A DNA stretch of 64,000 nucleotides from Phycicoccus endophyticus (GTDB lineage: Bacteria > Actinomycetota > Actinomycetes > Actinomycetales > Dermatophilaceae), in contig NZ_JAANCN010000007.1 in the NCBI RefSeq assembly GCF_011326735.1, positions 1 through 64,000 of the forward strand. The letters are read 5' to 3'. Under the pieces are notes generated by a model. That model was given only the letters and a program-made list of their open reading frames with translations, ran no database searches and had not been told where the DNA came from. The translations under genes and the position numbers were made by a program. Below are positions 9,031 through 40,238 of this stretch, one piece after another; the first letter of the stretch is position 1; the number at the start of each line of letters is the position of its first letter.

Positions 9031-9264
9031 TCAGCCGGGCGGCTCCTGCGGCGGCTGCTCACCGCGGGTCGCGACGACGTCGCGCGTCTGGGCGTACATC
9101 CGGGCGATGTAGGACTCCAGCTCGCTCGTCTCGACCCGCCACTGGCCGCGGCCGCCGACCTTGATCGCCGGCAGCTCGCCGCTGCGGACGAGGGCGTAGG
9201 CCTGCGCCGCGGAGATGTCGAGGATCTCCGAGACCTCGGTGAGCGGGATGAAGCGGCGGGGCAC
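9031..9264 (-). CDS. Small helix-turn-helix (excisionase/BldC-like) protein
   Basis: 77 aa from a GTG at 9264. Residues 1-60 form a MerR-type winged HTH: RFIPLTEVSEILDISAAQAYALVRSGELPAIKVGGRGQWRVE, with the second helix at about 17-26 and the wing at the GGRGQWR turn. A Pro/Glu-rich tail follows. These single-domain proteins bind direct repeats in promoters; BldC controls development in Streptomyces and other members are generic regulators. It converges on the preceding hypothetical gene with a 6-nt gap and diverges from the SAF gene, about 100 bp away. Confidence 0.85.
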   Translation of the reverse strand: MPRRFIPLTEVSEILDISAAQAYALVRSGELPAIKVGGRGQWRVETSELESYIARMYAQTRDVVATRGEQPPQEPPG

Positions 9265-9365
9265 GGCGCCAGTGTGCCACCCGGGCCCCTCCCGCCCGGC
9301 CCGGCCGTCCACAGGGCCGGCCCACCGGCGGGCGCGCACGGGCGGACTGGGGCAGGATCGCCGCC

Positions 9366-10028
9366 ATGAGCGACCTGCCGACACCGACCGCCTCCCGGCT
9401 GCGCGCGCCGTCCTGGCGCGACTCGCGGCTGCTCGTCGGCGTGCTCCTCGTGCTCGTCTCCACGGCGCTCGGGGGGCTCGTCCTGGCCCACGCCGACGAC
9501 ACCGTCCCCGTGTACGCGGCGGCCCGGGCCTGGACCCCGGGGCAGCGGCTCACCGCCGAGGACGTCGCGGTCGTGCGCGTCCGCCTCGGCTCGGGAGCGG
9601 CGGACTACCTCGCGGCCGACGTCCCGCTGCCCGAGGCCCGGTACGCGCTGCGGGAGCTGCGCGCCGGCGAGCTCGTGCCGAGCTCGGGGGTCGGGAGCGC
9701 CCAGGACGTCGGGGTCCAGCAGCTCGCCCTCCAGGTCGAGGCCACCTCGGCCGGCGTCCTCGCGCGGGGGGCGCTCGTCGACGTCTACGTCAACCGGCCG
9801 CGGCAGGGGTCCGCCGGGGTCGGCAGCACGCGCTACGCCGGGCCCGAGCGGGTCCTGCAACGGGTCTCGGTCGCGGGCGTGGCCGAGGCCGACGCCGTGC
9901 TCGCCGGGGCCGAGCAGACCCGGGCGGTCCGGGTCATGGTCCCGAGCGACGCGGTCCCCGGGCTCGTCGGCGACGTCGACGCCGGCTCCCGGATCACCCT
10001 CGTCCCCGTCCCCGGCGGCCCCTCGTGA
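9366..10028 (+). CDS. SAF-domain (CpaB/RcpC-like) membrane protein
   Basis: 220 aa from ATG 9366. One N-terminal transmembrane helix (about 20-42, LLVGVLLVLVSTALGGLVLA) precedes an extracytoplasmic SAF domain: VPVYAAARAWTPGQRLTAEDV and YALRELRAGELVPSSGV. A C-terminal beta-rich region similar to RcpC/CpaB follows. CpaB-like proteins support Flp/Tad pilus assembly. Its stop overlaps the GTG of the CpaE-like ATPase, so the two form one unit. The main Tad operon lies 20 kb away at 30.4-35 kb. Confidence 0.75.
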   Translation: MSDLPTPTASRLRAPSWRDSRLLVGVLLVLVSTALGGLVLAHADDTVPVYAAARAWTPGQRLTAEDVAVVRVRLGSGAADYLAADVPLPEARYALRELRAGELVPSSGVGSAQDVGVQQLALQVEATSAGVLARGALVDVYVNRPRQGSAGVGSTRYAGPERVLQRVSVAGVAEADAVLAGAEQTRAVRVMVPSDAVPGLVGDVDAGSRITLVPVPGGPS

Positions 10029-11296
10029 CGACGGTCGTCACGGCGCTCACCCACCGGCACGAGGCCCGGTTCGTCGAGGTCGTCGGCGCCGCGGCGGAGG
10101 TGACCCTCGTGCGACGGTGCGCCGACCTGCCCGAGCTGCTCTCGACGGGGGCCGCGGGGGTGGCCCGGGTCGCGGTGGTCTCCCCGGACCTGCGCGGCCT
10201 GGACCGGGACGCCCTGCGGCATCTCGCGGGGCACGGCGTGCGCGTCGCCGGCCTGGCCGCACCCGAGGACGAGGACGGCGAGCGCCGCCTGCGCCAGCTC
10301 GGGGTGGCGAGTGTGCTGCACCCCGACGACGACGCGGCCACCGTCGCCGCCGTCCTCGGGGGCCTCGCGGAGGCGACGACCTCCCGGCCCCTCGGCCCCG
10401 CGGCCGCGTCCACGGGTGAGGTCGAGGAGGAGCCCGAGGCGCCCCGGGCGCCGACGCCGGTCACCGTCGTGTGGGGTCCCACCGGGGCTCCCGGTCGCAC
10501 CACGGTCGCGGTCACGCTCGCGGCGACCCTGGCCCGTGCCGGCATCCGCACCCTCCTGGTCGACCTCGACACCTGGGGGGCGTCGGTGGCCCAGCTGCTC
10601 GGGCTCGTCGACGAGGCTCCCGGGGTCGCGGCCGCGGCCCGGGCCTCCGAGCAGGGGCTGCTCGACGTGCCCGGGCTGGCCCGGCTCGCCCCGGAGGCCC
10701 TGCCCCGGCTGCGCGTGCTCACCGGCCTGCCGCGCGCCGACCGCTGGCCCGAGCTGCGGCCGGCGGCGGTCGAGGACGTGCTGCGGCTGGCGCGCGGGAT
10801 CGTCGACCACGTCGTCGTCGACACCGGCTTCGCCCTCGAGGAGGACGAGGAGCTCAGCTACGACACCGCCGCGCCCCGGCGCAACGCGGCGACCCTGACC
10901 GCGCTCGAGGCCGCCGACCGGCTCGTCGTCGTCGGGGCGGCCGACCCGGTGGGCCTCCAGCGGCTCGTGCGTGGCGTGCAGGACCTCGCGGTCCGCCCCG
11001 CCCCGCCCCCGACGGTCCTCGTCAACAAGGTGCGGGCCTCGGCCGCCGGGCCGCGTCCGGAGCGCACGATCCGCGAGGTCCTCGGCCGGTTCGCCGGGCT
11101 CGAGGAGGTGCGCCTGCTGCCGTGGGCGCCGGAGGACTGCGACGAGGCCGTGCTGACCGGCCGCGCCCTGACCGAGGTGCGCCCGCGCTCCCCCCTGTTG
11201 ACACAGGTCGCGGCGCTCGCCGCGGACCTCGACGAGCGGTGCGTGGGTGCCCCCACCGCGGGCCGCCACGGCACCCGGCGGCGCGCCCGGGTCTGA
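10025..11296 (+). CDS. CpaE/MinD-like ATPase
   Basis: 423 aa from GTG 10025. Residues 1 to about 125 resemble an atypical receiver-like domain (VTLVRRCADLPELL...VAVVSPDLRGLDRDAL). Residues about 145-410 are a ParA/MinD fold. The P-loop GPTGAPGRTT replaces the usual signature and second lysines of GKGGVGKTT with A/R. The partner motifs TLLVDLDTWG and HVVVDTGF remain, as does the late TVLVNKV strand. CpaE-like proteins position the Tad pilus. The altered P-loop may reduce ATP hydrolysis. It is coupled to the SAF gene by a 4-bp overlap. Confidence 0.8.
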   Translation: MTTVVTALTHRHEARFVEVVGAAAEVTLVRRCADLPELLSTGAAGVARVAVVSPDLRGLDRDALRHLAGHGVRVAGLAAPEDEDGERRLRQLGVASVLHPDDDAATVAAVLGGLAEATTSRPLGPAAASTGEVEEEPEAPRAPTPVTVVWGPTGAPGRTTVAVTLAATLARAGIRTLLVDLDTWGASVAQLLGLVDEAPGVAAAARASEQGLLDVPGLARLAPEALPRLRVLTGLPRADRWPELRPAAVEDVLRLARGIVDHVVVDTGFALEEDEELSYDTAAPRRNAATLTALEAADRLVVVGAADPVGLQRLVRGVQDLAVRPAPPPTVLVNKVRASAAGPRPERTIREVLGRFAGLEEVRLLPWAPEDCDEAVLTGRALTEVRPRSPLLTQVAALAADLDERCVGAPTAGRHGTRRRARV

Positions 11297-35184: not shown

Positions 35185-36303
35185 GTGGCCACCGACTTCA
35201 CCCAGGAGATCAAGGACCTGCGCGCGACCATGGCGTCGGTCCGGGAGGTCACCGACCTCGACGCCCTGCAGCAGCAGATCCACGACCTCGAGCAGCAGGC
35301 CGCCGACCCCTCCCTCTGGGACGACCAGGAGCGCGCCCAGAAGGTCACCTCGGGGCTGTCGCGCGCCAAGGCCGAGTACGAGCGGGTCACCGGCATGGAC
35401 CAGCGGATCGAGGACCTCGAGGTGCTCGTCGAGATGGGCCAGGAGGAGGACGACGCCGACACCCTCGCCGAGGCCGAGCGCGAGCTGCAGTCGCTGCGCC
35501 AGGCCGTCGCCAACCTCGAGGTGCGCACCCTGCTCTCCGGCGAGTACGACGAGCGCGAGGCCGTCGTCACCATCCGCGCCGGCGCCGGGGGCGTCGACGC
35601 CGCCGACTTCGCCGAGATGCTCCTGCGGATGTACCTGCGCTGGGCCGAGCGCCACGGCTACCCGACCAAGGTCATGGACACGAGCTACGCGGAGGAGGCC
35701 GGGCTGAAGTCGGCGACCTTCGAGGTCAACGTGCCCTACGCCTACGGCAACCTCTCGGTCGAGGGCGGCACCCACCGGCTCGTGCGGATCAGCCCGTTCG
35801 ACAACCAGGGCCGCCGCCAGACGAGCTTCGCCGCCGTCGAGGTCGTCCCGCTCATCGAGAGCACCGACTCCATCGAGATCCCCGAGAACGAGCTGAAGAT
35901 CGACGTCTTCCGCTCCAGCGGCCCGGGTGGGCAGTCGGTCAACACCACCGACTCCGCCGTGCGGATGACCCACCTGCCGACCGGCACCGTCGTGTCGATG
36001 CAGAACGAGAAGAGCCAGATCCAGAACCGCGCCGCCGCCCTGCGGGTCATGCAGTCACGGTTGCTGCTCCTGAAGAAGGCCGAGGAGGCCGCCGAGCGCA
36101 AGGAGCTCGCCGGCGACGTCAAGGCCAGCTGGGGTGACCAGATGCGCTCCTACGTCCTCCAGCCCTACCAGATGGTCAAGGACCTGCGCACCGAGCACGA
36201 GGTCGGCAACCCCGACAAGGTCTTCGACGGCGACATCGACGACTTCATCGAGGCCGGCATCCGCTGGCGCCGCGCCCAGGAGAAGGCCACCGCCGAGGTC
36301 TGA
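35185..36303 (+). CDS. prfB: Peptide chain release factor 2
   Basis: 372 aa from GTG 35185. RF2 recognises UGA and UAA and triggers peptide release. The stop-codon recognition tripeptide is SPF in VRISPFDNQ and the catalytic GGQ is in [16 protein letters not shown]. The N-terminus [19 protein letters not shown] and the coiled-coil domain 1 are typical. There is no in-frame UGA with a CUUUGA slip site near codon 25, so the classical autoregulatory +1 frameshift is absent, as in other actinobacteria. It lies just upstream of an accessory island and the ftsEX block, a conserved order apart from the insertion. Confidence 0.97.
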
Positions 36304-36307
36304 GCCG

Positions 36308-36329
36308 ATGGACGCCGATTGACGTCCAT
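36308..36329 (+). terminator. Short hairpin after prfB
   Basis: ATGGACG at 36308-36314 pairs with CGTCCAT at 36323-36329 around an 8-nt loop, 5 nt after the prfB stop. It marks the left edge of the lower-GC island. Confidence 0.45.
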
Positions 36330-36430
36330 GGTGCCGCGAGTCGCGGCGGCCGCGTCAGAACAACGATCCTGCGCACTCGTTCCTGGGTCCGGATTGCCGG
36401 TACAACGCTCGCCTTGCGAATTCTCGCAAT

Positions 36431-37036
36431 ATGGATCCCTGCGGCGCGCGGCTGGCAATAACTTCACTTGGGGAGCCCTACGCGAAGGGCTACTGGTGGA
36501 GCGCTAACCGCAGGGGGGAGGTGAGTCGGATGAAGGTGAAGGTACGTCGCGCTGAGAAGGTAGAGGCCACCGGAGCATTCTCAGCACAGCGTATCGTGAA
36601 CGCAGCAGTCGTGGCAGGAGGCGTTCCGGTGTATTCGGAGCGAGCCAAGTAACCCGAGGTCGTGTCTATACGGTAATACCGCGCGAAACAGGTCGCTTCG
36701 ACTGCCTTAATGTTCACTACTCGCAGCAAGATCCGCAGTTTGTTGAGCAGTTCGCAGGGTTTCAGGCCTCACATTTTCGAACCTCCATCAGTTGAATATG
36801 CGCCGTCGATCTACTTTCTCGCTTCCATAATTGTGGACGAAGCGGTTCGAGTCTTGACGGGTTATGCTCCCCCGCGCAGCCTGGGGAGACAGTTCGAACT
36901 GGATTACGAACAAGGAACTTCCTTCGCCCATCCGGCGTGGCCGCGGCTCCCGAACGACTGTCCCACGTGTGGCACCGGTAGCGTTACCGACTGGCGAACC
37001 TTTCAGCATTACTCTGTGCCCTCATGGGAAGACTAG
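36431..37036 (+). pseudogene. Decayed ThiF/E1-like adenylyltransferase
   Basis: ThiF-family sequence is spread over two frames. Frame A (to the stop at 36652) has QRIVNAAVVAGGVPVYSE, the 'N-A-A-V-A-G-V-P' part of the fold. It then continues in a second frame (about 36655-36780) as GRVYTVIPRETGRFDCL...DPQF, the segment after the adenylation site. It switches back to the first frame (about 36755-37036) with LASIIVDEAVRVLTGYAPP and ends HPAWPRLPNDCPTCG, the zinc-binding tail. At least two frameshifts are needed, and the N-terminal Rossmann motif is missing. ThiF relatives adenylate peptide or carrier C-termini, including in RiPP (thiazole/oxazole) pathways. Composition is visibly less GC-rich than its neighbours. 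A functional small peptide at 36530-36652 is an alternative. Confidence 0.65.
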
Positions 37037-37200
37037 AAGATTGGGCCAAGGTGCCGATCATGGTCAAACCCTTCAGTTCTCGGAAGTTGAAGAACGGTCA
37101 TTGGGTGGTCGTGGCACGGGAGGCAGATATTCTCGTAGTCCCACATGAGGTAATGGAGGTGCTGGTCGGGGGTAGCGGACCCTGCGGTGCTTTGCCATGA
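37024..37200 (+). CDS. Small ORF downstream of the ThiF remnant
   Basis: 58 aa from ATG 37024, overlapping the end of the ThiF remnant by 13 nt. Sequence features: PIMVKPFSSRKLKNGHWVVV, then ADILVVPHEVMEVLVGG. The beta-beta-beta-alpha-like run with a 'dG.w.vv' turn faintly recalls PqqD/RRE peptide-binding folds, but this is weak. It lacks a clear ribosome-binding site; coupling to the upstream frame is possible. It may be a true accessory gene or part of the decayed cluster. Confidence 0.4.
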   Translation: MGRLEDWAKVPIMVKPFSSRKLKNGHWVVVAREADILVVPHEVMEVLVGGSGPCGALP

Positions 37201-37310
37201 CCTGTGGCGCCTGGGCTCTTCTCATGTGGCTCGGTCGAGCAGTCTCAATCACACTGTTTCTGCTGTACCTTGTGCCGATCGGTGTCCTTCTGGGCCGCAG
37301 CTTGACTTGA
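37197..37310 (+). CDS. Tiny membrane ORF, ATGA-coupled
   Basis: 37 aa from ATG 37197, overlapping the previous stop as ATGA. One hydrophobic helix dominates (AVSITLFLLYLVPIGVLL), preceded by a Trp-rich start and followed by GRSLT. The 4-bp overlap hints at translational coupling. Its last 66 nt are antisense to the C-terminal end of the TetR gene, so it may not be real. Confidence 0.35.
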   Translation: MTCGAWALLMWLGRAVSITLFLLYLVPIGVLLGRSLT

Positions 37311-37919
37311 GTCTTTGTGCGCGCGGGGCGAGCCAACTAGCGCCGTGACCGCCGTCCGGTACAGTTCGGGGTCCACGTCATCGGGGTCCACGAGCCGCAG
37401 GACCGACAGGCCGACATCGAGGGCGAGGAGGATCCTTTCCTGGTCCGGGGCATCCACCGCGGCCAACCCGCTGTCGCGAGGGATGAGGCTGCGCCCAGCC
37501 TCAGGATGCGGCCGCAGGACCTCTCGCAGCTGAGTGCGTAACTCCTCATGGCGGAGGGCGTAGGCCATGAAGTCGAGGAGCAGCCGGGCATAGCTCGCCT
37601 GTTCACCCGCGCGTGCCGTGTCCACCCACACGTCACACCAGGTGTCGAGACGCGCCCACTCGTCCCCGGGATCGTCGAGAACCTGCTGGAAGGCGTGGGC
37701 CTGGGTGGTGTCTTGGAGCCGATGCCGAATGACCGCGAGGATGAGGTCGCCCTTGCTGCCGAAGTTGGAGTACACGGCCCCCTTCGTCAGACCGGCAGCG
37801 GAGGCCACGTCGTCGAGAGAGGCGCCGTCGACACCGCGCTCACCGAAGATGCGCTCGGCGGTGTCGATGAGTAGGCGTCGGTTGTTCTCCTGGCGTTCGG
37901 TCCGCGTCAGCCGCTGCAT
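37245..37919 (-). CDS. TetR/AcrR-family repressor
   Basis: 224 aa from ATG 37919. The TetR_N HTH covers about 10-56: RRLLIDTAERIFGERGVDGASLDDVASAAGLTKGAVYSNFGSKGDL. The C-terminal ligand domain contains LLLDFMAYALRHEELRTQL and DQERILLALDVGLSVLRLVD. It diverges from a two-gene ABC transporter, with a 69-bp gap containing an inverted repeat over the predicted -10. The usual logic is a ligand-responsive repressor of the transporter. The unusually polar C-terminus (after about residue 200) runs into the lower-GC remnant region and may be an extension created by an insertion boundary. Confidence 0.9.
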   Translation of the reverse strand: MQRLTRTERQENNRRLLIDTAERIFGERGVDGASLDDVASAAGLTKGAVYSNFGSKGDLILAVIRHRLQDTTQAHAFQQVLDDPGDEWARLDTWCDVWVDTARAGEQASYARLLLDFMAYALRHEELRTQLREVLRPHPEAGRSLIPRDSGLAAVDAPDQERILLALDVGLSVLRLVDPDDVDPELYRTAVTALVGSPRAHKDSSQAAAQKDTDRHKVQQKQCD

Positions 37920-37975
37920 GCCCGCAATCTACGAGCGCCGCCAGGGCGGGTCAGCGGTCGAGCGACACAATTGGG

Positions 37976-37988
37976 ATACTATCGGTAT
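37976..37988 (+). promoter_or_regulatory. TetR operator candidate over the ABC promoter
   Basis: ATAC-TATCG-GTAT at 37976-37988 is an inverted repeat with a 5-nt spacer. It overlaps the -10 TACTAT at 37977-37982, which ends 6 nt before the GTG at 37989. A repressor bound here would block the leaderless ABC transcript. Confidence 0.5.
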
Positions 37989-38927
37989 GTGAACCGTCCC
38001 GAGAGTTACCATGTGCCGACGTTGGCCGTCCAGCGGGTGACGAAGACCTACGCCGCACGCTCGGTGCGTGCCAACGACGAGGTCTCCCTCAGCGTGGACG
38101 GCGGGACGCTGCTCGCGGTGGTCGGTCACAACGGAGCCGGGAAGACGACCCTGCTCAGCCAGGTCATCGGAGTGACCCGTCCGGACTCCGGGGAGATCAC
38201 CCTCGACGGGGCTTCGCTGGTCGCCGACCCCGGGCTCGCCCGGCGAACGGCGTCGATGATGCCTCAGCTGCACGCACCTCTGACCGGTGTCACGCCGCGC
38301 CAGGCGGTGGTCGCCGTCGCGCGTCTTCGCGGCGCGTCCTCCCGCGATGCGCGCTCGGCGGCCACGCGGCTCTTCGCCGCCCTCGACATCGAGGAATTCG
38401 CGGACCGCGCCGGCGAGAAGCTGTCCGGCGGAGTTCGTCGGCTGGCCTCGCTGGCCATGACCGCTGTCCGCGCGCCGACGATCGTCCTCGTTGACGAACC
38501 CACCAACGACGTCGACCCCGTGCGCCGTCCGATGATCTGGTCGGTGCTGCGTCGCCTGGCGGACGACGGACGCATCGTGCTCGTCGTGACGCACAACCTC
38601 CACGAGGTGCAGCAGACGATGGACCGGTTCGTCCTCATGCAACGAGGCCGGGTCCTGATGGACAGCACCCCCGCGACCGTCGCCGGTGCGCTCGCGCCCA
38701 TGACGCTCACCGTCCATGACGCCCGCCCGGGCATCGAGGACTCCGCACCCCGTTGCCGCGACTCCGTCCGGCGAGGCGCGGATCTCGAGCTCGTGGTGGC
38801 GCCGGACCAGGTGGTGGCCGTTGCCTCGTGGGCCGTGGACCTCACCCGCAAAGCGCTGGCCTCCTCGTTCGCGCTGGAGCCTGCGTCGCTGTCCCGCCTC
38901 TACGAGCGAGTCACCCGTGCCGGATGA
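37989..38927 (+). CDS. ABC-2 type transporter ATP-binding protein
   Basis: 312 aa from GTG 37989 (TTG 37971 also possible). Residues about 10-235 form the nucleotide-binding domain: Walker A GHNGAGKTT, Q-loop SMMPQLHAPL, signature LSGG in EKLSGGVRRLAS, Walker B IVLVDEPTNDVDP, and H-loop VVTHNLHE. A C-terminal regulatory tail follows. It pairs with the downstream permease (11-bp overlap). In the DrrA/CcmA-like class such pumps export drugs or lipids. The likely regulator is the divergent TetR gene. Confidence 0.93.
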   Translation: MNRPESYHVPTLAVQRVTKTYAARSVRANDEVSLSVDGGTLLAVVGHNGAGKTTLLSQVIGVTRPDSGEITLDGASLVADPGLARRTASMMPQLHAPLTGVTPRQAVVAVARLRGASSRDARSAATRLFAALDIEEFADRAGEKLSGGVRRLASLAMTAVRAPTIVLVDEPTNDVDPVRRPMIWSVLRRLADDGRIVLVVTHNLHEVQQTMDRFVLMQRGRVLMDSTPATVAGALAPMTLTVHDARPGIEDSAPRCRDSVRRGADLELVVAPDQVVAVASWAVDLTRKALASSFALEPASLSRLYERVTRAG

Positions 38928-39711
38928 CGTGAGCCCGCGGGGTGGACAGGTTGCGCTCCCACAGCGAACGGACACGCCGAAGCTGCCCTGGACGTCGACC
39001 TGGTGGTCGCTCGTGCGATGGAGCATGGTCCGGCATCGATACCTCCTCCCGGTGTTCACGGCCGTCCAGGCGCTGTTTGCCGTGGCCATCGTCTACGGTC
39101 TCGCGCTGCTGCTGCCCGAGGTGGACGCGGCCGCCGCACGCCGGCTCTCCTCGGGGGCCTGGACCCTGGGCGTCATCGCTGTGGGGTGTGTTCTGGCCCC
39201 GCGGGTCGTCACGGCGTCGAAGCAGGAAGGTCTCCTGGAGTACCAACGGACGCTGCCGGTACCTCCCTCCGCGCTGCTCCTGGCGGACATGACCGTGTGG
39301 GGCGTTGCTGCCCTGCCCGGGATCGCCGTCGGCGTCGCCGCCTCGGTGACGCGCTTCGACCTCGACCTGAGCCCCGGCCCGTCACTGGTGGGGGCGCTGG
39401 TCCTCGTCTTGGTCGCCGCGACGGGGATCGGTTACGCGATCGCCTACTGGTTGCCTCCGGAGGCGGCGGGCCTGGCGACGCAGGTCGTCATGATCGGAGG
39501 GCTGTTGTTCTCACCGATCACGTTCAGTCCCGACCGCCTGCCCGCGTGGGCGGCGACTGTGCACGAATACCTGCCGTTCGCACCCATGGGCAACCTCGTC
39601 CGGGAGAAGGCCTTCGGCGGTGCCGTGGACGTCCGGGACCTCGTCGTCGTCGCAGTCTGGGGAACAGCCGGTGTGCTGGCCGCCCTCGGCTACCTCGTGC
39701 GACGTCGGTGA
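38917..39711 (+). CDS. ABC-2 type transporter permease
   Basis: 264 aa from GTG 38917 (GTG 38929 possible). Six hydrophobic helices are visible, at about 45-66, 80-97, 118-139, 148-173, 181-202 and 243-258, the DrrB/ABC-2 topology. The conserved late element FSPDRLPAWAATVHEYLPFAPM before the last helix is characteristic of ABC-2 permeases. It overlaps the ATPase gene, so one complex is expected. Substrate unknown. Confidence 0.88.
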   Translation: MPDDVSPRGGQVALPQRTDTPKLPWTSTWWSLVRWSMVRHRYLLPVFTAVQALFAVAIVYGLALLLPEVDAAAARRLSSGAWTLGVIAVGCVLAPRVVTASKQEGLLEYQRTLPVPPSALLLADMTVWGVAALPGIAVGVAASVTRFDLDLSPGPSLVGALVLVLVAATGIGYAIAYWLPPEAAGLATQVVMIGGLLFSPITFSPDRLPAWAATVHEYLPFAPMGNLVREKAFGGAVDVRDLVVVAVWGTAGVLAALGYLVRRR

Positions 39712-39736
39712 CGGATCGACGTTCGTTCCTCGGCCC

Positions 39737-39742
39737 TATGGT
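39737..39742 (+). promoter_or_regulatory. -10 element TATGGT, probable leaderless start
   Basis: TATGGT ends 7 nt before the GTG at 39750; no ribosome-binding site is visible between them. Confidence 0.5.
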
Positions 39743-39749
39743 GGGTCGG

Positions 39750-40238
39750 GTGACCGCGCCCGAGACCACGCCCGCCGCCACCTGGGCGGACTGGGAGGCC
39801 GAGCTCGTCGCCGCCGTGCTCGCGCTCGAGGACGGAGCCACCGTCACCGCGGCCGCCCCGGTGAAGCACGCGCGGATGGCCGCGACCGGGGGGCGGCTGC
39901 GCTGGCTCGCCGGGTCCCGCCGACGCCCGCTGCTGCCGACCGCCCGGCTCGTGCGGGTCGAGGACCACCTGCGCGGGCACTGGACGGGCTCGCGCCGGCT
40001 CGGCGGGCGCTTCCCGTGGACCGCCGCCGAGGAGGAGGCGCTCCTCGGGCTCGGCTGGCACCGCCCGACCGTCGGCGACGGCGAGGACTTCGTGCGGTTC
40101 TGGCCCGACGACGTCCCCGGGTCCCCCTACCTCGACCCGGCCGACGCCACCCGCGCCGCGGCGGCGGTCGCCGCCACCTTCGGGCAGGTGCTCGGCGTCG
40201 AGCCCGACGAGGGGCTGCCCACCCTGCGCGGCACCTGA
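39750..40238 (+). CDS. Hypothetical actinobacterial protein
   Basis: 162 aa from GTG 39750. The N-terminus TWADWEAELVAAV and the middle FPWTAAEEEALLGLGWHRP...FVRFWPDD are conserved-looking, Trp-rich stretches. A C-terminal helix with AAAAVAATFGQVLGVEP follows. It may be a small alpha+beta chaperone-like protein (TY-Chap or YbjN type), but that is a guess. It lies between the accessory island and ftsE and returns to the high-GC composition of the core genome, so it marks the island's right boundary. Confidence 0.6.
   Translation: MTAPETTPAATWADWEAELVAAVLALEDGATVTAAAPVKHARMAATGGRLRWLAGSRRRPLLPTARLVRVEDHLRGHWTGSRRLGGRFPWTAAEEEALLGLGWHRPTVGDGEDFVRFWPDDVPGSPYLDPADATRAAAAVAATFGQVLGVEPDEGLPTLRGT

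Follow-up and report, generated by a model that had tools for sequence, protein, structure and literature searches.

Which gene cluster once stood downstream of prfB in Phycicoccus endophyticus, and does any part of it still work? In the 64,000 nucleotides of DNA analysed here (the window), positions 36431-37310 had been read as the lower-GC remnant of a ThiF-containing cluster, either a horizontally acquired modification or small-peptide cluster that has decayed or a compact system whose true frames were misread (referred to as the original prediction). We conclude that the larger segment 36304-39737 is, very probably, a horizontally acquired ThiF-RiPP cluster of the enterofaecin/WWIII type in which the biosynthetic half has been destroyed and a TetR-controlled ABC exporter has been kept. 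The original product of the cluster was probably a tiny cyclised peptide. Peptide production by the segment is dead, while the remaining TetR-ABC genes may provide regulated export or self-protection. The remnant is a decayed member of an already known kind of RiPP cluster; new here are the existence of a relic, the actinobacterial relatives and the Trp residue four from the precursor C-terminus in 21 of 22 loci. A RiPP cluster is seen mid-death, its biosynthetic genes truncated and its regulated exporter unbroken, and this pattern of decay bears on why related TetR-ABC modules commonly occur without an adjoining peptide.

The inserted segment

The features of the segment are listed in Table 1. 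A comparison of the prfB junction in 11 Phycicoccus congeners showed that the gene at 39738 follows prfB directly in ten of them, and the segment is therefore regarded as an insertion. The eleventh congener (G004) has other sequence after prfB within the 1.5 kb examined; this junction (L075) may have taken another insertion or rearrangement. The longest word common to both ends of the segment is 8 bases, megablast of the segment against plasmids gave no match, and no sigma-70-like promoter was found within 36200-39800. A low-GC patch extends from approximately 36300 to 37400, with a minimum of ≈0.57 compared to 0.66-0.80 on the flanks, in agreement with the less GC-rich sequence noted originally. 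The GC3 values are 0.49-0.59 for the ThiF pieces, 0.80 for the TetR gene and 0.86 for both the ATPase and the permease genes. The proposal of a horizontally acquired, decayed modification cluster is borne out by intact syntenic clusters in other bacteria, absence of the segment from this site in 10 of the 11 congeners, and large deletions and frameshifts. The coordinates need two corrections. The first ORF likely starts at the ATG at 36530, behind a ribosome-binding site, and not at 36431, and the cluster runs on to 39711 to include the unbroken TetR and ABC genes.

Table 1. Features of the inserted segment in the window
Feature	Position	Strand	Remarks
Inserted segment	36304-39737	.	≈3.4 kb, between prfB (stop 36301-36303) and a TY-Chap3-domain gene (39738-40238)
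Precursor-peptide leader MKVKVRRAEKVEAT	36530-36571	+	DNA match of 76-80% to the precursor genes of L015, L021, L022 and L024
Hybrid ORF, 40 aa	36530-36652	+	Precursor leader fused to ThiF interior; junction ≈36570-36576
RRE-ThiF adenylyltransferase remnant	36576-37036	+	Residues ≈232-376 of 380 kept
58-aa ORF, N-terminal end of HExxH membrane protein	37024-37200	+	Aligns to four intact relatives
37-aa ORF, C-terminal membrane end of the same HExxH protein	37197-37310	+	ATGA-coupled to the 58-aa ORF
TetR-family regulator, 224 aa	37245-37919	-	Unbroken; Pfam TetR_N, E 2.4e-14
GATAC-N5-GTAT palindrome, candidate TetR operator	37975-37988	.	In the gap between the TetR and ABC genes
ABC transporter ATPase	37989-38927	+	Unbroken; Pfam ABC_tran, E 8.5e-25; alignment A2; tree
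ABC-2 permease	38917-39711	+	Unbroken; Pfam ABC2_membrane, E 8.1e-11

Remnants of the precursor and ThiF genes

A ThiF/E1-like protein broken over two frames was originally predicted. The ThiF remnant is real: a search of the window's own genome with an intact relative matched 36575-37012 (E 2.3e-40, two TAA codons inside). However, the gene is more than split. Residues 1-231 of 380 (the N-terminal 60%) are missing, which removes the RRE and the ATP-binding half, and the remainder runs through frame A (36576-36631), frame B (36631-36777) and frame A again (36779-37036), that is, with two shifts. Residues 232-376 align without gaps to 36578-37012, and the stretch in the other frame (residues 250-298) matches the intact ThiF at 73% identity. 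In the invariant C-x-D-C motif the first Cys is an Arg in the window. Three residues that are invariant in all 15 aligned intact enzymes, R166, K179 and D224, fall within the deleted half, and an RRE-ThiF protein having the conserved ATP-site Arg, Lys and Asp is not encoded in the window; number and spacing suggest that these residues correspond to R167, K180 and D225 of EnfB. By Pfam the ThiF similarity of the window pieces is weak (E 0.078 and 0.018; 12.6 and 14.6 bits) and below the PF00899 gathering score of 28.1 bits, compared to 176.9 bits for the intact L015 enzyme; it is the search with the intact relative that is unequivocal.

A further copy, or an intact ThiF of the cluster type, was not found in the window's genome, where the only other good ThiF lies on contig C3. 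Among 396 genomes of the order, eight (including the window's own) matched a 118-aa frame of the remnant (36680-37033): three close relatives (62%, 50% and 50%) on open frames of 395-399 aa and four others at 31-44%. A single weak match (34%) to the ThiF piece was found in the 11 congeners. With tblastn, one plasmid-borne relative was detected (Niallia taxi plasmid pMEGANia, 60%), and none in phages. Profile A3 (E≤1e-60) gave no hits in a phylum-wide draw of 396 genomes, a null that says little because only five candidates per genome were scored and no positive is known within the draw.

Upstream of the ThiF remnant, the DNA match to precursor genes of the relatives begins at the ribosome-binding site (36507-36516); none was reported to the L023 precursor gene. 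As in the relatives, the leader carries the V/I-R-K/R-A motif behind the ribosome-binding site. The core (xWWIIx in the relatives) is deleted, and no WWxxx ending with Trp at position -4 remains. Two blastn blocks, 36513-36570 and 36576-36978, are separated by 6 bases in the window and by 823 in L015; relative to L015, ≈0.8 kb has been lost at a clean, in-frame junction.

Remnant of an HExxH membrane protein gene

Both small ORFs downstream of ThiF, originally taken as separate, are present, but they are what is left of a single former gene, its N- and C-terminal end, respectively. The 58-aa ORF matches four intact HExxH proteins over their first ≈45-60 residues, with a score that none of 2000 shuffles reached. 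The 37-aa ORF aligns to their last ≈30 residues, and its score was reached by 5 of 2000 shuffles against the last 60 residues and by 18 of 2000 against the whole proteins. It overlaps the 3' end of the TetR gene, as the intact HExxH gene does in L015. The centre of the gene has been deleted (≈0.7 kb, estimated from protein lengths) and with it the HExxH motif, which is invariant in all eight intact proteins aligned. NCBIfam model NF058609 (YydH/LiaK) was weakly matched by three of the eight (best E 1.2e-6; one bit score seen was 19.9 against a cut-off of 225), while Pfam named none of three such proteins. By the motif and this weak match the protein is a putative membrane protease. The L021 protein (9116-10054) gave a fairly confident structural model (mcee23a4610ae, pLDDT 83) that matched no solved structure in the PDB at E≤0.001.

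Intact relatives in Actinomycetota and Bacillota

A scan of one genome per species produced 23 loci, of which 20 were kept; together with L015 and L020 these make 22 family loci (L041-L043, 27-29% identity, are excluded from the counts, and L030, L031 and L038, which lie on the same contigs as L017, L016 and L018, are each counted once). The hosts on the actinobacterial side are Tessaracoccus, Corynebacterium, Actinomyces, Nonomuraea, Bifidobacterium, Microbacterium, Canibacter, an Intrasporangium MAG and an actinobacterial MAG, and among Bacillota Amphibacillus, Falcatimonas, Acetivibrio and Streptococcus thoraltensis. In five clusters (L015, L021, L022, L023 and L024) the order is a precursor of ≈20 aa, RRE-ThiF, HExxH membrane protein, antisense TetR, ABC ATPase and ABC permease; in L021, from Tessaracoccus sp. 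MC1679, the precursor has 21 aa. The neighbourhoods of L015, L016, L017 and L020 likewise hold a tiny ORF, a ThiF of 376-380 aa, an HExxH membrane protein of 260-330 aa and then ABC genes; next to the L020 and L016 clusters two-component proteins are found, the regulator there differing from TetR. Of the 22 loci, 14 gave a match to the HExxH protein and 15 to the permease. The gene set is not universal, since with the queries used neither was seen in L033 and L035-L039 (6/22), whose ThiF proteins share only 38-47% identity with the L015 enzyme.

In 21 of the 22 loci, the 420 bases upstream of ThiF contain an ORF of 15-30 aa that follows a ribosome-binding-like word and has Trp at exactly position -4, counted from its end; in the exception the contig has only 142 bases upstream of ThiF. 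Such ORFs were found on the opposite strand in none of the 22 loci, albeit from fewer ORFs (10 versus 35), and Trp occupies position -4 in 22 ORFs and position -5 in 13. The count was made without a Trp filter and with a loose ribosome-binding-site filter. Pfam and NCBIfam named none of three precursors. All 21 loci having a precursor show the W-x-x-C-terminus spacing, the window being without a core. A model of the intact Tessaracoccus ThiF (pLDDT 90) has an N-terminal beta-alpha domain, which would be the RRE judging from published work and the match of the model to MccB along its length (≈360 columns; PaaA over 352).

Some individual loci depart from this arrangement. In Nonomuraea cypriaca (L036, 7649-7890) two tandem precursor ORFs, ending in KWVIF and SWIIF, precede one ThiF. 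The ThiF of Streptococcus thoraltensis DSM 12221 (L040, 4318-5416) aligns in three overlapping pieces, with the precursor ORF present and ABC genes matching over long stretches; perhaps this is another decaying copy, or the assembly contains errors. An in-frame stop directly after CPTC near the ThiF end in Corynebacterium oculi (L023, ≈9086-9140) could be a natural shortening or damage.

The TetR regulator, the ABC exporter and a shared palindrome

The window TetR is 51-54% identical to the TetR proteins of four intact clusters, where it has the same place and orientation. Identity of the window permease is 55-64% against the five nearest clusters, 27-51% against more distant clusters and at most 46% against stand-alone copies; a separate comparison with the four nearest intact clusters gave 58-63%. 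The ATPase has Walker A/B, LSGG and H-loop motifs. The palindrome in front of the ATPase gene occurs once in the 64 kb and in none of 100 shuffles; it has the same location in L015, L021, L022 and L023 and is degenerate in L024, making it a probable operator to which TetR would bind. It was also seen upstream of the precursor in L023 (7718, ≈100 bases) and L026 (7336, ≈500 bases), and the peptide genes may therefore be under the same motif. The five nearest clusters also encode a second ABC ATPase, which has no equivalent in the window.

Relation to known systems and a possible mechanism

The segment is homologous and syntenic to enterofaecin/WWIII-type clusters as a decayed descendant and not as a working member; homology was judged on the actinobacterial and Bacillota relatives. 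Enterofaecin of Enterococcus faecalis derives from EnfA, 21 aa with WWIVI, and EnfB, an RRE joined to an adenylyltransferase (Wang et al. 2024, via PMC12250964; the work is also cited in PMC13361665 and PMC12445099). Shared with the window's family are the ≈21-aa precursor, a (V/I)RKA-like leader, a WWIxI-type end, the RRE-ThiF enzyme and ABC transporters (PMC12250964). The window copy differs in what it has lost: the core, the central part of the HExxH gene and, from ThiF, both the RRE and the ATP-binding half. Its closest relatives come from Actinomycetota and encode an HExxH membrane protein, joined in five loci by TetR; neither is named in the available text of PMC12250964. The ind cluster (IndA/IndF/IndP) of Streptococcus pneumoniae also has an RRE-ThiF enzyme: its core ends W-Y-F-I with Trp four from the C-terminus, and IndF forms an amide between indole N1 of this Trp and the final Ile of NWYFI, with a W-x-x-C-terminus spacing as in the present precursors (PMC12150305). 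It differs in its longer precursor and in the M16 peptidase IndP (PMC12150305). No M16 (PF00675) match at E≤0.001 was found among nine neighbour proteins of L015, L016 and L020, and a loose HxxEH pattern matched frames in two of eight loci.

Among solved structures, microcin C7 MccB is the closest to the intact enzyme by fold, followed by pantocin PaaA, and both appear in the profile search as well; identity is only ≈20%. An HExxH membrane protease also belongs to the epipeptide cluster yydFGHIJ (NCBIfam YydH/LiaK, a weak match for the window's relatives), in which yydIJ form an ABC pair. That cluster relies on a radical SAM epimerase (PMC7026026) where the window's family has RRE-ThiF, and MccA of microcin C7 ends in Asn (PMC12150305) and not in W-x-x-hydrophobic. 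Our literature search gave no account of actinobacterial members, or of orphan immunity, in the enterofaecin/WWIII family. In the text available, the published accounts mention no genera other than Enterococcus and Streptococcus, although actinobacterial members may well be included in the RefSeq-wide survey of PMC12150305. With the present comparison the WWIII type includes Actinomycetota, where an HExxH membrane protein and a TetR palindrome accompany it.

In the ancestral cluster, the ≈20-aa precursor would have bound the RRE of the ThiF enzyme via its V/I-R-R/K-A leader. After adenylation of the C-terminal carboxylate, the enzyme would cyclise the core into a small ring, the most likely acceptor being the indole nitrogen of the Trp at position -4. 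Leader removal would fall to the membrane HExxH protein, and the ABC pump, under TetR control, would export the product and protect the producer. For enterofaecin, ring closure has been reported to occur through an imide at the backbone nitrogen of Ile19 (PMC12250964). The Trp at -4 in every precursor found favours an indole bond across the family, as far as sequence can tell, and it makes the ring structure, on which two reports on related enzymes disagree, directly testable. We tentatively consider a further possibility, with the odds against it: that the window retains an orphan inducible immunity, in which TetR senses a cyclised W-x-x-X peptide made by neighbours and, through the operator GATAC-N5-GTATC, induces the ABC pump, and that the whole WWIII family, enterofaecin included, makes rings from the Trp indole to the C-terminus and no backbone imide. 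If so, the host is a former producer that has retained only the sensing and defence half.

Alternative explanations

The preferred reading has a variant in which the whole segment is decaying and the TetR and ABC genes, without present function, just have not yet been broken. Measured against the same relatives, the ATPase and TetR are less identical than the ThiF relic pieces; their identity is 51-55%, the relatives sharing 67-86% among themselves, so that they may be under relaxed constraint or may serve a new substrate. The second ABC ATPase is missing, and the branch of the window ATPase is long (1.14 compared to 0.15-0.27 in the nearest intact relatives). The long branch and the low identities also count against full function of the exporter in the preferred reading. 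Against this stand three unbroken frames over ≈2.4 kb with coding-like GC3, kept catalytic motifs and a kept palindrome, whereas the neighbouring genes have two frameshifts and two large deletions. At the rate of the ThiF relic, with its two shifts within 435 bases, a rough Poisson estimate from these two events predicts ≈11 in the 2394 bases of TetR and ABC genes, and none was seen. We regard this variant as a real but minority possibility. Errors of sequencing or assembly in an intact cluster could account for single-base indels taken by themselves, but not for ≈0.8 kb lost at a clean in-frame junction together with the missing HExxH centre, or for pieces that are AT-shifted in codon composition, and the assembly is rated 100% complete and 0.17% contaminated; such errors, rejected on account of the two large deletions and the codon composition, are highly improbable. 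The least probable reading takes the pieces as functional, either as a compact system that uses programmed frameshifts or as a new, minimal kind of E1-like protein. The two shifts do compensate, bringing the last part back into the first frame, but nothing is left of the RRE, the precursor core, HExxH or the nucleotide-binding half that carries the conserved Arg, Lys and Asp, and the invariant Cys is replaced. Because the segment no longer encodes the precursor core, the ATP-binding half of ThiF or the HExxH centre, both programmed frameshifting and the misread compact system of the original prediction were rejected.

It could also be argued that the ThiF/HExxH debris stems from one event and that the TetR-ABC pair is an unrelated stand-alone module. 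Such modules are common in the order: the permease was matched in 41 of 396 genomes, and in only four of them, counting the window's genome, was there also a match to the 118-aa ThiF piece (E≤0.001). Of the 37 stand-alone modules in the draw, 26 were examined with 1.5-kb flanks and 20 with flanks up to ≈5 kb; TetR, ATPase and permease occur together in all of the latter 20, and the palindrome in 9/26 and 8/20, respectively. Yet TetR and the ABC genes have an identical position and orientation in five intact clusters, and the window permease is closer to these than to any stand-alone copy, with the reservation that its identity to the distant clusters is also low. Moreover, the permease and ATPase trees (42 and 44 rows) both place the window outside the stand-alone group. 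The smallest well-supported set holding the window comprises 16 rows, the others all being RiPP-cluster homologues (support 100/100 for permease and 97/94 for ATPase), with none of the 26 stand-alone modules inside it; these group separately, with support of 100/100 in the permease tree and a weak 84/62 in the ATPase tree. Several rows, including the window ATPase, are long and of unsure place, the tree program having flagged the latter because of its long branch. A chance neighbourhood, being contradicted by synteny, was rejected and is very unlikely, if slightly less so than an assembly error.

Among the stand-alone modules, L048 and L050 have two palindrome copies each, a ThiF-like match lies near L103 (1973-2614; 31%, 1e-23), and a small ORF at 3401 in L108 fits the Trp(-4) precursor pattern.
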